Assembly: GCF_001437155.1 (NCBI RefSeq)
Contig: NZ_JQAR01000003.1
Span: 62,001-126,000 of the forward strand
Source: Liquorilactobacillus mali
GTDB lineage: Bacteria; Bacillota; Bacilli; Lactobacillales; Lactobacillaceae
Direction of reading: 5' to 3'
DNA length: 64,000 nucleotides
This document shows, in pieces, positions 22,621 through 27,913 of this stretch. The stretch's first letter is position 1. Every line of letters starts with the position of its first letter. The notes under the pieces were generated by a model that had not been told where the DNA came from, did not search any database, and saw only the letters and a program-made list of their open reading frames with translations. The translations under genes and the position numbers were made by a program.

Positions 22621-25600
22621 TTAAATCTCTAGTTTACCTGGCAATAATTTTTGTTGGACTGGATTAGATTCACCCACAAAGAAATATTCATTGTCGTCAT
22701 TACGTAAAACATAGCCGATTCCACGATCTAAAATATTTGTACCATTGAAGTATTTTGCCATCCATTGATCAACTTTGACACTTGAGTCAATTGTTTTACC
22801 TGTCGATACTTGAACGCTATTAAATAAATCTGGATGTTCAATTTCCAATAAGTCTAGGAATTCACCACCATACTTCTTTTGGTATTTTCCGCCACCAATA
22901 GTATTGGCAACGTACAACATCTCATGTATCTCCGAGTTTGCTAATTGATTCCCTTCTTCATCAGTTCGATTAACTGTTACTAACTCTTCAATAGGTAGGT
23001 TGTAAATCTGATCTGGTACCCAATCAGCAATTGCTTGAATACCGGCCACATGCAACGCTTTAATAGCATTTCGTAAATCATCCACCGTACCATATTTTGT
23101 TGGTGTTCCAAAACCGAGATCATAGCGATCAGTGAAAGCATAGCCATTATCAATTCTTGAGTCCAAGAATGTCTTGTCACCACTTGAGCGGTATTGCGGT
23201 GCCAATTCAAAGCTTGTAAAACCTAACGCTTTGAATAAAGACGTATTTTTGGCAATAATTACATTTGTGTTATTATCATGTGAATCAGGATAGAAAATAA
23301 AATTTGAGAATCCCTCAAAAATAACATTTGAATCTAGTGCCGCATTTGAGTGAAATACTTTACCATCGGTTGACGCCGTTGTTGTTGCCACCGTGCGTAC
23401 ATCTTGCTCAGCTGCTGCACCAACAGGTACCCAAACTGCTAAATAACCTGTAACTTCAGGATTAGCATACCCCTGAACACTTGTATTAACCTCATCCTTA
23501 CCATTAACTAGTAAATCATGATTTGTAAAAATCAAATCCCCACTATCATCAGTATATGCAATTGGTGCACCCTCATCCGAAGTATAATTAACAACTCCGT
23601 CTGTTGTAGTTAGAACAGCTGCTCGGTAGGTTTGATTACAATGGGCTGCTCCCATATGCAGTACTACCTGCTCGTCGTCTTTTAAACTCAGGCTAGTATT
23701 ATTGCTAACAATGACTCCGACACCTTCCGTCCGTGTTTCTTCCGTACCCTTGTCGTCAACCGTCATTGCACCTTTTCCAAAACGAACACTGGTTAAAATA
23801 TCATTACTATCAACTGCCATTGTCTGACCGCCGGTAACGTATTTAATACGACTTGTCAATAAATTAGCGATTGTATCATAGTAAATCGTCTTATCAGCCA
23901 TATATTGTCCACCTTCAAGATACATATCCCCGTAGTAGATACGCGGAACCGTATCTTTATTCGTTAGCAGGAGCGCATAAGCACTAGGCATATTATAACG
24001 ATTATATTGCTTAGAAGTTGATGCTTGGTCTTCATAATATAGCTTCAAACCTTGCTCAAGTTGATCCCATGTAAAATCACCATATTCACCACCAGTTGCA
24101 GCCTGAACAGCCGCTTGGATTTGATCCTGCGAGTTAGAATCATGGGCTCTAACAAATGTGTAGTTGGGAATTGCTGTATTATCAGTACTATCTTCAGAAC
24201 GGTCAATCAAATACCATTGTAAAAAACGCGCCATTGTATCATTCGAACCAGGTGTATTTTCCAGAGACGAGTTCATTTGCCCGACAAAATAATCATCCAT
24301 CGTTAGTTGATTAGCACCTTGATCATATATATACTGTGGATCATCACTGCCCCAATCTTCTAAAATTGATAAATGAGCATTCGCTGTTTGTTCATTTTCG
24401 TCGACATGATAAACATCCTTAAAGTAATCGGCTGCAATACTTAGTAGATCTGCATCAACATTATCGACAGCATCAACACGAATGCCATCAAAGTTTGCAG
24501 ATGAATCATTTGCAGTAATTGAACCAAAGTTCATCAAATAATGAAGCCAATTCAACTCTTCTGCTTGAACAATTGGATTAGAATTATCAATATCATTCGC
24601 CAATAAGAATTCGGAACCTTTATTTTCATGATCTCTAATATATGAAGGAACGTAGCCTAAAATACGATAATCAGAGTTTGCTTTAGAAGTCCTTTGACTA
24701 TTCTGGTATGCCAAAAATCCACCTTGCAAAGACTGCAATCCATCTGAACTGACATCTTCTGTTGATTTATTCCAAATTGATTCTGTTTTAATAAAACTAT
24801 GCATTAACTGTCGTAACCAATTGGTAGACTTTGTCAAAGTTATATCTTTTTCTAAAGCAATTTGAATAGTCTGTACCGCGCCGTTGAGCATTAACCAACT
24901 GTCAGTTGTTGAAAATACATGATTACTTTCCACAATTCCACGTTCAATCATATAGTTTACATAATCTGATTGAATACTCTTACTTGGCCACCAAGCCATC
25001 AGGAGTGGGCGGAAATCTTCAGATTTAGATTTCCTCCAAGTCTTACCACCAAGTAATATTTCCTTAGGACGGTACCAAGAATCGGCAGTTAAATAACCAT
25101 CTAACGTCTCAAAACTTTCGATACTCCTTGTTTTTACGCCATTGTGAGCCGCAAAACTGTTAACAGCTTTGCCTGAATTAACCTGCTTCGGTATATGCTG
25201 CGAGACTAGCCGCTGGACTTTTCCGGTTCCAGCTTCAGAATAATAGGCTTTGCCCTTGACTGTTTCTATCTGATCTTTAATCAAATAGCCATCCTCATCA
25301 AAGTAATAAACCTTTCCATCAATATTTTGCATTCCTGTTACAAAAGAACCATTCTTATCAAAGTAATAAATCATCTTATCTTGGTCGGTGAAAAAACCTG
25401 AACCTGCTGGTTGGCCTTTTGCCTGGTAAGCAGTTGTTTTTCCATTTTCTTCTAAAATATACGGAATGGCGTTTCCTGAATCTTTATCAAAATAAAAAGT
25501 TGTTTCACCGTTTTTTACGTACTCGCCTTTGACTTGTGCGCCAGAAGTTTGATCGAAATACTGTAAGTTGCCATCAATCAAATTCAATCCTTTAATCTTA

Positions 25601-25782
25601 TTTCCCTGCTCATCAATGAAAAACCACGTATCATTAATGTTTACATATTCACCTCCCACAACTACTGGAATTCCCCAACTGCCAAAGATGCTCTCAAAAG
25701 AGCCTAATCGAGCAGTTTCTTTAACTCTTAGGCCTTCACCATCATAAATGTGTTTTGGCCTTTCTACTGTTATTTGATCCAT
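22621..25782 (-). CDS. GH70 glucansucrase (dextransucrase type) without signal peptide
   Basis: A 1053-residue transglucosidase that makes alpha-glucan from sucrose. N-terminus (about 50-195): YG-type glucan-binding repeats ([45 protein letters not shown]). Circularly permuted catalytic core: [11 protein letters not shown] with nucleophile Asp437, SILEDW with acid/base Glu475, [10 protein letters not shown] with stabiliser Asp548, and [12 protein letters not shown] near 920. All catalytic residues are present. It starts at [15 protein letters not shown] with a good AAAGGAAAGGAAG site. There is no signal peptide or LPxTG, and the usual C-terminal extension is lacking, making it shorter than typical (about 1400-1700). 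Motif IV residues SNS differ from the SEV of classical dextransucrases. Linkage type is not predictable here. Confidence 0.92.
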
Positions 25783-25814
25783 CTTAAAAACTTCCTTTCC
25801 TTTAGGTTGACATT

Positions 25815-25854
25815 ATCTTAAGCCCGTATTTTTGCTTAATCAAACATATGTTCG
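25815..25854 (-). promoter_or_regulatory. Glucansucrase promoter overlapped by a LexA-box-like palindrome
   Basis: Leftward: -35 TTGATT (25838-25843), 17 bp, -10 TAAGAT (25815-25820). On the minus strand CGAACATATGTTTG (25841-25854) fits the Gram-positive LexA/DinR core GAAC-N4-GTTY and is part of a longer near-palindrome TTAATC...GATTAA (25836-25859). A repressor bound there would block the -35 element. Confidence 0.6.
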
Positions 25855-25875
25855 ATTAAATTGTAAAAAAAATTT

Positions 25876-26241
25876 CTATTCCCTTTTTGTTTGTTCTTTT
25901 TCTCCAACTTGTCGCTGCTTTACAGCTGTAAGTTCTTTGGTTAACAATTCAATGGTCTGGTTAGCATCTTCCAAAGCTTGTTTAAATTGAGGATCCTGTA
26001 ACTTACTTCCAGTTGAGATTAAAATCTGATTGTTCAAAACATTGCCGATTAAAATAATTAATGAGCCAATTGCACTAATTATTACCGAAATATCAGCCGC
26101 AGAAATAGTTATATGCCATACCCATTTAGCAACCATCAGCATAATTATTCCGCCGAAAGCAATTAAAGAAATCCAAAAATTAAGTTGATGTCGATTTGTC
26201 TCCCATAATGTACATAAACGCGAAAAAGTTTTCCTAATCAT
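25876..26241 (-). CDS. Small two-helix membrane protein with charged coiled tail
   Basis: About 121 residues. It has two hydrophobic segments (about 22-43 and 50-72) and a C-terminal amphipathic/coiled region rich in Gln, Glu and Lys (FKQALEDANQTIELLTKELTAVKQRQ). ATG 26241 is preferred over GTG 26250 because the AGGAGG site then has normal spacing. It overlaps the upstream small gene by 8 bp. Two helices plus a charged tail is the general topology of phage-type holins, but no holin family was recognised. It stands between the S24-controlled promoter and the glucansucrase. Confidence 0.55.
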   Translation of the reverse strand: MIRKTFSRLCTLWETNRHQLNFWISLIAFGGIIMLMVAKWVWHITISAADISVIISAIGSLIILIGNVLNNQILISTGSKLQDPQFKQALEDANQTIELLTKELTAVKQRQVGEKEQTKRE

Positions 26242-26443
26242 TTTCTTCACCTCCTAAAAATTTACCTAGCTTGTAAACCCTGACTGTGTCCGCATAATTT
26301 GTCCTAGCTGCATATGTTGGAGTTGCTTTGAATCGTAGCGTCTTAATCGAAGTATGATGCCGTACCGCCAACTCTCTAAGTGTCCCAACATCAACAAACT
26401 CGTCACCACGATATAATGCATACCAGCATGTTTTTCTGTTCAT
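26234..26443 (-). CDS. Small basic protein of phage-like type, unknown function
   Basis: About 69 residues starting MNRKTCWYALYRGDEFVDVG, continuing with TLRELAVRHHTSIKTLRFKATPTYAAR. Proteins of this pattern (short sheet, 'GTxxELA' turn, basic strand) occur in prophage early regions of lactic acid bacteria. They may bind nucleic acid, but no function is established. ATG 26443 follows AAGGTGG. It is divergent from the S24 repressor and lies right behind its operators. Confidence 0.5.
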   Translation of the reverse strand: MNRKTCWYALYRGDEFVDVGTLRELAVRHHTSIKTLRFKATPTYAARTNYADTVRVYKLGKFLGGEEND

Positions 26444-26478
26444 GTAGACCACCACCTTAAAAATTAGTTGTAGTTTTC

Positions 26479-26580
26479 GTTCTCAATAAAGAACACAGCC
26501 AGACTAACCCTTTCGTTCTTTATTGTCAAACACTAGAGAAAAAAAATATCATTGTTCCCATTAAAGAACAATGATATAAT
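26479..26580. promoter_or_regulatory. Three operator-like sites between the phage-like genes and the S24 repressor
   Basis: Site 1 GTTCTCAATAAAGAAC (26479-26494), site 2 GTTCTTTATTGTCAAAC (26515-26531) and site 3 GTTCCCATTAAAGAAC (26554-26569, extended ATTGTTC...GAACAAT) share the half-site GTTCTTTAWTG. Site 3 overlaps the repressor's promoter: -35 TTGTTC (26552-26557), 17 bp, -10 TATAAT (26575-26580). The arrangement resembles phage-type immunity operators with autorepression. Confidence 0.75.
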
Positions 26581-26615: not shown

Positions 26616-27230
26616 ATGAAAAACAATACTGAGGTAATTGAAACGATTATCAGGTTAAGTCATGAGCAAAACCTATCCATTAGTGAGGTTGCTCGTCGAA
26701 CTAAAATGGCCAAATCAGCCGTTTCTAAATACTTCAATAAAACACGGTCATTTCCTTTAAACCGGATAGGGCAATTTGCCGAGGCCCTTGGGGTAACACC
26801 GGAGGAATTACTAGGTGTTCCTAGTAATCTTCATCCAATCACTAGGACGGTTAAAATCCCTGTTTTAGGGGTTATTGCTTGTGGAGATCCAATTACAGCC
26901 GAGGAAAATATTGATAGTTATATTGAAGAACCTAAGGAAACTCTGCCTAATGGTAAACTTTTTTACTTACGAGCTAAGGGCCGTTCAATGACTCCAACGA
27001 TTCCAGACGGAGCTAATGTATTAATTCGGCAGCAACCTGACGTTGAAGACGGTGAAATTGCTGCTGTTTTACTAACCAATGAGAATGAAGCAACCTTGAA
27101 AAGAATCAAGCACTCAAAAGGTATAATTCTTTTGATACCAGATAACCCTGAATATCAACCAATTGTTTCAAGTGACGAAAATCCCATTCGCATTTTGGGT
27201 AAGGCTTTGCGCTACGTATCAAAACTCTAA
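26616..27230 (+). CDS. S24 (LexA/CI/HdiR-like) self-cleaving repressor
   Basis: A 204-residue protein. N-terminal HTH (about 4-67): SISEVARRTKMAKSAVSKYFNKTRSFPLNRIGQFAEAL. C-terminal S24 peptidase domain (about 80-204). The cleavage site is Cys89-Gly90 in VIACGDP; the catalytic dyad is Ser124 in GRSMTPT and Lys162 in ATLKRI. These residues imply RecA-stimulated autocleavage, as in phage CI or lactococcal HdiR. GGAGGTG precedes the ATG. It is divergent from two phage-like small genes followed by the glucansucrase. No integrase or structural genes are present, so it is either a prophage remnant or a domesticated stress regulator. Confidence 0.92.
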   Translation: MKNNTEVIETIIRLSHEQNLSISEVARRTKMAKSAVSKYFNKTRSFPLNRIGQFAEALGVTPEELLGVPSNLHPITRTVKIPVLGVIACGDPITAEENIDSYIEEPKETLPNGKLFYLRAKGRSMTPTIPDGANVLIRQQPDVEDGEIAAVLLTNENEATLKRIKHSKGIILLIPDNPEYQPIVSSDENPIRILGKALRYVSKL

Positions 27231-27266: not shown

Positions 27267-27725
27267 TTATTTCTGTTTTTCAAACACTGCTTGCTGTACT
27301 GTAATCTTTTGCGCTATCCGTGATACATCACTCTTTGTACCGCGTAATTCAAATTCAGCAAGCACAGGAAATCCAAAGCGGCTTGCATATTGCTTCGCTG
27401 TTAATGCAAACTGTTTATTAAAGTTGCGGTTACCGCTACCGATAATTCCGTAACAGTACCGATAATTATTCTCATAGGCCAAGTAATCACCAAGAATTGT
27501 TGTTAAAATCTCAGTGTAGCCACTATCAATTCCATTACCGCCCTTTAAAAAGGTAGGTAAAAAAGTAACAAAGGGAGCGTTTAATCTGGTAAACTCTGGA
27601 AATTCCTTTACATTAAGTGCATTCACTGTAACTCCTTGTTCTGCAAAATACTGTGTTAATTTTCCAATAAAAGCCTTAGTATTCCCACTAAGACTAATAT
27701 AAAGAATATTTATTTGTTTATTCAT
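27267..27725 (-). CDS. nrdI: NrdI flavodoxin-like protein
   Basis: Small FMN protein that supplies oxidant for assembling the dimanganese-tyrosyl radical of class Ib ribonucleotide reductase (NrdEF). About 152 residues: ILYISLSGNTKAFI (FMN loop), VTFLPTFLKGGNGID, EILTTILGDYLAYENN and GIIGSGNRNFNKQFALTAKQY are all NrdI signatures. ATG 27725 is taken over GTG 27731. No nrdE, nrdF or nrdH is beside it, so this is an isolated copy; lactobacilli often encode nrdI apart from nrdEF. Confidence 0.92.
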   Translation of the reverse strand: MNKQINILYISLSGNTKAFIGKLTQYFAEQGVTVNALNVKEFPEFTRLNAPFVTFLPTFLKGGNGIDSGYTEILTTILGDYLAYENNYRYCYGIIGSGNRNFNKQFALTAKQYASRFGFPVLAEFELRGTKSDVSRIAQKITVQQAVFEKQK

Positions 27726-27913
27726 AAACACCTTTCTCCTCCATATATAGTATGTATATTACATTGTAACACGATATATATGGGATAAGAATGTGAAATA
27801 GGGGAGTGCTTATTGCATTTGTGCTGAAAGGTAGTCATTCCTTTATTCACGGATGAAGATTTCATTTTTTATTTTCACTGCTAAAATTTTAGTTATTATT
27901 TTTTTAAATTAAA

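Follow-up and report, generated by a model that had tools for sequence, protein, structure and literature searches.

A LexA-type box over the putative −35 element of a Liquorilactobacillus mali glucansucrase gene that shares its 5′ end with BacA-like genes

The window, a stretch of 64 kb from the genome of Liquorilactobacillus mali, contains a glucansucrase gene of family GH70. It is preceded by a small cassette of genes for a holin-like protein, a 73-residue protein (p73) and a divergently transcribed S24-type repressor. The features considered here are the following.

22621–25782, minus strand: glucansucrase (GH70) of 1053 aa; PF02324 with 914 bits over residues 260–1048, above the curated cut-off
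25729–25782, minus strand: first 18 GH70 codons, homologous at the DNA level to the starts of PG-binding/Rv2525c-like (BacA-like) genes
25790–25801, minus strand: ribosome-binding region AGGAAAGGAAGT, from sequence and leader alignment
25815–25820, minus strand: putative −10 element TAAGAT with a spacer of 17, kept in 8/8 aligned GH70 leaders
25838–25843, minus strand: putative −35 element TTGATT, from sequence and conservation, overlapping the box
25836–25859, no strand: 24-bp near-palindrome, reading TTAATCAAACATATGTTCGATTAA on the plus strand, with one mismatched pair
25841–25854, minus strand: LexA-type SOS box CGAACATATGTTTG, a 14-bp core, from matrix score and conservation
25876–26250, minus strand: holin-like membrane protein of 124 aa; PHROG 297 'holin' with an E-value of 1.9e-4, no Pfam match over the cut-off
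26234–26455, minus strand: p73, a protein of 73 aa; PHROG 803, no Pfam match
26479–26494, no strand: putative S24 operator GTTC-N8-GAAC, from sequence
26554–26569, no strand: putative S24 operator GTTC-N8-GAAC, from sequence; the same inverted repeat was also scored as terminator-like
26616–27230, plus strand: HTH and peptidase S24 (CI/LexA-like) repressor, PF00717 and PF01381, divergent from p73

The glucansucrase is 96% identical to a protein of Liquorilactobacillus mali KCTC 3596 and 71–86% identical to the proteins of three other relatives; its relatives of solved structure are 3klk, 6syq and 3tto. Reading of the protein and a hydropathy window, without a predictor, revealed no visible signal peptide. 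A secretion signal is the rule among GH70 enzymes, but as far as the accessible part of the source goes, some of them lack it, so that this signal is not a strict criterion (PMC8954249). The TTGATT/TAAGAT promoter was assigned by eye and by conservation. It was not listed by a consensus promoter scan because the scanner demands a threshold of 9/12 matches.

The original prediction placed a near-palindrome of 24 bp over the −35 element of this promoter and read its centre as a Gram-positive LexA core, GAAC-N4-GTTY. The palindrome is indeed present, and the box within it does overlap the minus-strand TTGATT. Across orthologues only part of the palindrome held up: the 14-bp core and the AT that follows it are strongly conserved, the left outer arm is not. 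The core on the minus strand matches the boxes of lexA and recA, which bears out the LexA-type reading in the absence of binding data. Its 3′ half is GTTTG and not GTTCG, a form that suits both the operator and the −35 role.

The loose pattern GAACN4GTTY has 4 matches in the window against 4.08 expected; it is at chance level and proves nothing alone. We scored sites with a matrix derived from 21 lexA/recA boxes of Liquorilactobacillus, in which no GH70 box was included. The window box reached 19.52, compared with 19.25 for the lexA box and 20.95 for the recA box of the same genome, and the next-best site of the 64-kb window scored 8.64. None of 60 first-order Markov simulations of 64 kb reached 19.52. 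The loci scored with the matrix (about 130 kb) had been picked for holding boxes, so the rank among them is not genome-wide. A second GAACN4GTTC at 24521–24532 lies inside the GH70 coding region and was rejected as an operator, its 14-mer scoring 5.68.

The genome of 2.44 Mb encodes LexA (TIGR00498 over the curated cut-off, 213 bits). Inspection of the protein found A-G, S and K at the places where the cleavage residues presumably lie; cleavage itself is inferred. Scanning the whole genome for CGAACN4GTTYG gave 10 strand-hits at 8 places as opposed to 19 for the backward control, so the numbers alone carry no weight. Six of the 8 places precede genes, namely lexA (CGAACGTTTGTTTG), recA (CGAACTTTTGTTCG), an ImpB/MucB-type polymerase gene (CGAACGTATGTTTG), the GH70 gene and two genes for proteins with PG_binding_1 and Rv2525c_GlyHyd-like domains. 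One of the remaining two lies within a tRNA methyltransferase-type gene. The uvrB promoter region has a box with one mismatch, CGAAAGTATGTTCG. Within the genus, a CGAACN4GTTTG box stands upstream of lexA in 14/14 Liquorilactobacillus genomes and a CGAACN4GTTCG box upstream of recA in 13/14; with the patterns used, no box was found at the recA gene of L205. A different box at lexA and recA would have refuted the prediction, and the scan it had called for gave the opposite outcome: the two genes carry the same box type as the GH70 gene, and uvrB a near match.

The last of the 8 places, CGAACATAGGTTTG (L019 2812–2825; G000:C67:2812–2825), lies where the gene before a ClpB-like gene ends, at a distance of about 110 bp upstream of the latter, and scores 17.9 on the lexA/recA matrix. 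The ClpB-like and tRNA methyltransferase-type places both look unrelated to SOS genes.

GH70 genes were found in 8 of the 14 Liquorilactobacillus genomes. Each of the eight has exactly one gene of the type seen in the window (leader type), with 1053–1076 codons and no visible signal peptide, and in 8/8 the box starts 72–73 bp before the ATG. Another eight GH70 genes whose N-terminus could be read have a signal-peptide-like start, mostly YKKGKxW..., and in none of these eight assessable genes was a box found within 400 bp. Signal peptides were called throughout from reading and hydropathy, with no predictor, and two non-leader genes were left out of the counts, L043 at a contig end and L094, which is broken and has unreadable stretches. 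The mean pairwise identity among the eight leaders is 0.944 for the core, 0.377 for the 80 bp upstream, 0.736 from box to ATG and 0.515 for the first 75 coding bases. One Liquorilactobacillus genome also has a signal-peptide GH70 gene at a distance of about 2 kb from recA (G009:C2:10675–16097; L091, L211).

In the GH70 tree the eight leader-type genes form one clade with a support of 100/100, for which one ancestral event suffices. The clade, four signal-peptide GH70 genes and a row from L. fermentum meet in an unresolved fork, so that the tree does not identify the closest relative of the clade. The row of L. mesenteroides was duplicated in this tree and the duplicate was disregarded. A box that matches the lexA and recA boxes of its own genome, conservation in orthologous promoters and the presence of a LexA gene are all properties of a LexA regulon member, and all three are met here. 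From these data, the site is very probably a LexA operator; binding of LexA and SOS induction are inferred.

The leader of the GH70 gene also precedes a gene of 734 codons in the same genome, the two leaders being 83–84% identical. The protein encoded by that gene is a member of PHROG 15213 with a PG_binding_1 and an Rv2525c_GlyHyd-like domain. The relative in Enterococcus faecalis is a protein of 726 residues, encoded in a locus that also contains bacL2, a gene for a peptidoglycan amidohydrolase and one of the phage holin family, which makes it the Bac41 bacteriocin locus. We take the protein from gene order and size to be the one named BacA, and hence call the family BacA-like. Relatives occur in 53/301 Lactobacillaceae genomes, spread over 18/40 genera, and on 535 plasmid records, 381 of which are from Enterococcus. 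A search of solved structures with the BacA-like protein found none, and a phage collection held only two weak or partial relatives. On plasmids of L. hordei TMW 1.1822, L. nagelii TMW 1.1827 and L. mali LM596, we observed a BacA-like gene with the same LexA-box leader (L147 6034, L148 6034 and L150 5034). Directly after BacA-like genes there are ORFs of 177–205 codons that resemble membrane proteins (L156 7269–7802, L003 386–952, L018 5194–5811); they could be immunity genes, and the one at L156 7269–7802 has only a weak Pfam match.

For a sample of BacA-like genes, 45 of 60 places were read, the rest being mostly N-terminally incomplete, and together with 6 further loci this gave 51, of which 49 had a readable start (not L125 and L144). 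These 49 fall into 35 groups of distinct upstream DNA. A LexA-type box within 250 bp was found in 17 of the 35 groups versus 3 of 247 background ORF starts (one-sided Fisher test, 5e-15, which ignores relatedness among groups; the background includes ORFs that are possibly not genes). The positions and sequences of the boxes vary between groups. The other 18 groups, with E. faecalis and Melissococcus among them, showed no LexA-type box.

Genes for these PG-binding/Rv2525c-like proteins have 5′ ends homologous to that of the GH70 gene, from the box through the promoter and ribosome site to the first codons. Over its first 54 nt, the GH70 gene of the window is identical to the BacA-like starts of L102 and L134 at 30 and 27 positions, compared with maxima of 26 and 25 for 156 other ORF starts. 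For all eight leader-type genes the figure is 26–40 of 54 against maxima of 25–26, and the BacA-like start was closer in 16/16 comparisons. At the protein level, the likeness over the first 18 residues is clear for the GH70 genes of the L. aquaticus/capillatus type (8–10/18 identical). The window copy alone, with 5 and 4 of 18, remains within the null, whose maximum is 5. The start MDQxVLxxQxWLN is typical of the BacA-like family in members as distant as Enterococcus and Melissococcus, so we infer that GH70 was the recipient of this start and not its donor. The GH70 protein of the window has neither the PG-binding nor the Rv2525c-like domain, and only the 5′ end is in common. Judged by sequence likeness, it is thus probable that the 5′ end of the dextransucrase gene was captured from a bacteriocin-like gene under SOS control.

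The S24, p73 and holin-like genes, together with the leader, precede GH70 in the window, in L096 (L. mali) and in L097. On a related replicon of another species (L156), the same unit of S24, p73, holin-like gene and LexA box carries a BacA-like gene of 696 codons where the window has GH70. No relatives of S24, p73 or the holin-like protein were found in the 10–11 kb stretches searched around the other five of the eight leader-type GH70 genes, all of which keep the box. Relatives of S24 and the holin-like protein were also observed together without GH70 or BacA-like cargo in other Liquorilactobacillus genomes, at L239, L240, L242 and L243, and relatives of p73 and the holin-like protein at L241, where an S24 relative was not checked. 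In the window, an NrdI-flavodoxin-like gene (27267–27731, minus strand) adjoins the S24 repressor gene.

A profile search with the holin-like protein over the 301 genomes of the family gave matches in only 9, all of them Liquorilactobacillus, and a plasmid search with it gave no match. A distant relative found by profile search lies in a prophage-like region and adjoins a GH25 endolysin-like gene. Together with the PHROG 297 match, this relative supports a holin function of the 124-aa protein but does not prove it.

The identity of the box, its conservation, the common 5′ end and the exchange of one gene for another inside a single cassette are established at the level of DNA. Based on them, we are confident, short of certainty, that a LexA operator covers the −35 element of GH70 and that the gene came under SOS control through one ancestral capture of a BacA-like 5′ end, which left a cytoplasmic enzyme without signal peptide. 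In this proposed event, GH70 would have taken the LexA box, promoter, ribosome site and about 18 first codons from a PG-binding/Rv2525c-like gene of the kind found at the Enterococcus Bac41 locus, once, in an ancestral Liquorilactobacillus. LexA on the −35 element would repress GH70 in undisturbed cells. DNA damage would lead to RecA-stimulated self-cleavage of LexA, and GH70 would be released along with recA, the ImpB/MucB-type polymerase gene and uvrB. How the enzyme leaves the cell is a matter of hypothesis, with a holin-like route as the candidate.

That the palindrome arose by chance is a reading to which we give practically no weight. The loose pattern does occur at its expected frequency, but the box stands at a fixed distance in 8/8 orthologues and no simulated window attains its score, and for the full site chance was rejected on these grounds. 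That the box serves the S24 (CI-like) repressor next to it and not LexA would be a natural reading, since the gene for this HTH and S24 protein lies 0.76 kb from the box and its putative operators also contain GAAC and GTTC. These operators, however, have the opposite polarity and another spacing, GTTC-N8-GAAC as opposed to GAAC-N4-GTTY, in agreement with the original observation that the two sets of half-sites differ. In addition, the GH70 box equals the lexA and recA boxes, and 5/8 leader-type loci keep it with no S24, p73 or holin relative in the 10–11 kb searched. Polarity and the five loci without a detected S24 cassette led us to reject this reading, which we consider highly improbable. 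We find it similarly hard to credit that an unrelated regulator reads the same palindrome and controls GH70. Short palindromes are common to many regulators and there are no protein–DNA data, but a matrix built from lexA and recA boxes only ranks the site between those two boxes of its own genome.

A stronger objection, though one we still think unlikely, is that the box is a relic of the captured leader, to which LexA may bind while the gene is effectively constitutive and without a physiological SOS role. The overlap with the −35 element would by itself conserve GTTTGAT, and the half-site is GTTTG and not the symmetrical GTTCG. In the accessible part of PMC7555045, the dextransucrase of L. 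hordei is abundant without deliberately applied damage, so repression may be leaky if that gene has this leader. Against a relic stands the CGAAC half, which lies outside the −35 element and is invariant in 14/14 aligned leaders with an identity of 0.38 just upstream; promoter function alone is therefore insufficient as an explanation.

Returning to SOS control by LexA, a more far-reaching version can be formulated for the L. mali group, which we offer only tentatively and doubt more than we believe. With its S24 domain, the S24 protein resembles repressors that cleave themselves, from which its release upon damage is inferred, and such release would imply co-expression of the holin-like gene. 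The cassette and the LexA-controlled GH70 gene might then form one damage-triggered unit: both repressors would be inactivated, the holin-like protein would open or lyse some cells, and stored dextransucrase would be freed as a shared good that makes protective dextran from sucrose, in the style of a colicin whose payload is a polymer-making enzyme and not a toxin. If damage-triggered release is true, the replacement, behind one and the same control unit, of a BacA-like gene by GH70 would record a change of payload.

If SOS control holds, dextran formation, usually viewed as sucrose metabolism, would be part of the DNA-damage response in this clade, and a secreted enzyme would have turned cytoplasmic through capture of a bacteriocin-type gene start. 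SOS control would then offer a direct test for the regulation and release of signal-peptide-less dextransucrases of Liquorilactobacillus from water kefir. It would also indicate that Lactobacillaceae have a large family of BacA-like genes controlled by LexA. In the literature searched, which left most subscription papers outside, neither SOS control of a Liquorilactobacillus dextransucrase nor the shared leader was described, and no paper dealt with Bac41 together with LexA.

According to the accessible part of PMC2248561, the Cheo box has the consensus CGAACRNRYGTTYC and the predicted LexA motif of Firmicutes is taCGAACATATGTTCGta. The window core is one base off the core of the latter and fits its central RNRY; it differs in that the regulated gene is a glucansucrase and that the 3′ half GTTTG doubles as the start of the −35 element. 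LexA control has been proposed before for sucrose-acting enzymes. The sources, as far as available, describe an in-silico LexA motif before dsr of Weissella cibaria C2-32, a strain-specific site detected with a RegulonDB matrix and attributed to a 2-bp insertion (PMC9498152), and a motif proposed in silico before levLX of Leuconostoc mesenteroides, with no direct regulatory element at the glucansucrases (PMC10177778). The window box, in contrast, is a Firmicutes-type site that is conserved from species to species and also found at lexA and recA.

Dextransucrases without signal peptide are described for L. hordei TMW 1.1822 and L. nagelii TMW 1.1827 in the available portions of two articles (PMC7555045, PMC8954249). 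They share genus and family GH70 with the window enzyme, and the one of L. hordei has no known signal peptide; orthology and presence of the box are not shown for these strains. The collections searched did not contain the DNA upstream of these two dextransucrase genes, and a tblastn search of plasmids with GH70 listed no Liquorilactobacillus record. What is accessible of PMC7555045 states that the L. hordei enzyme accumulates in cells independently of sucrose, that sucrose raises its release, and that its authors argue against major lysis; the main text says nothing about LexA. If the gene has this leader, these partial data fit a cytoplasmic enzyme and speak against both tight repression and a main route by lysis in that strain.

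The Bac41 locus (bacL2, holin, hypothetical gene and 726-aa protein) resembles the Liquorilactobacillus system in its 726-aa glycoside hydrolase domain protein, 42–44% identical to the Liquorilactobacillus BacA-like protein, and in a phage-holin-family gene two genes upstream. It differs in having no LexA-type box upstream of the 726-aa gene, and the glucansucrase has only the first codons in common with it. Colicins are SOS-controlled, lack a signal peptide and have a holin- or lysis-like gene nearby. The GH70 unit differs from them in its product, a glucansucrase, in its holin-like gene, which lies upstream and under another repressor, and in that no release by lysis has been shown; it resembles them in the SOS control inferred here, in the lack of a signal peptide and in the closeness of a holin-like gene.
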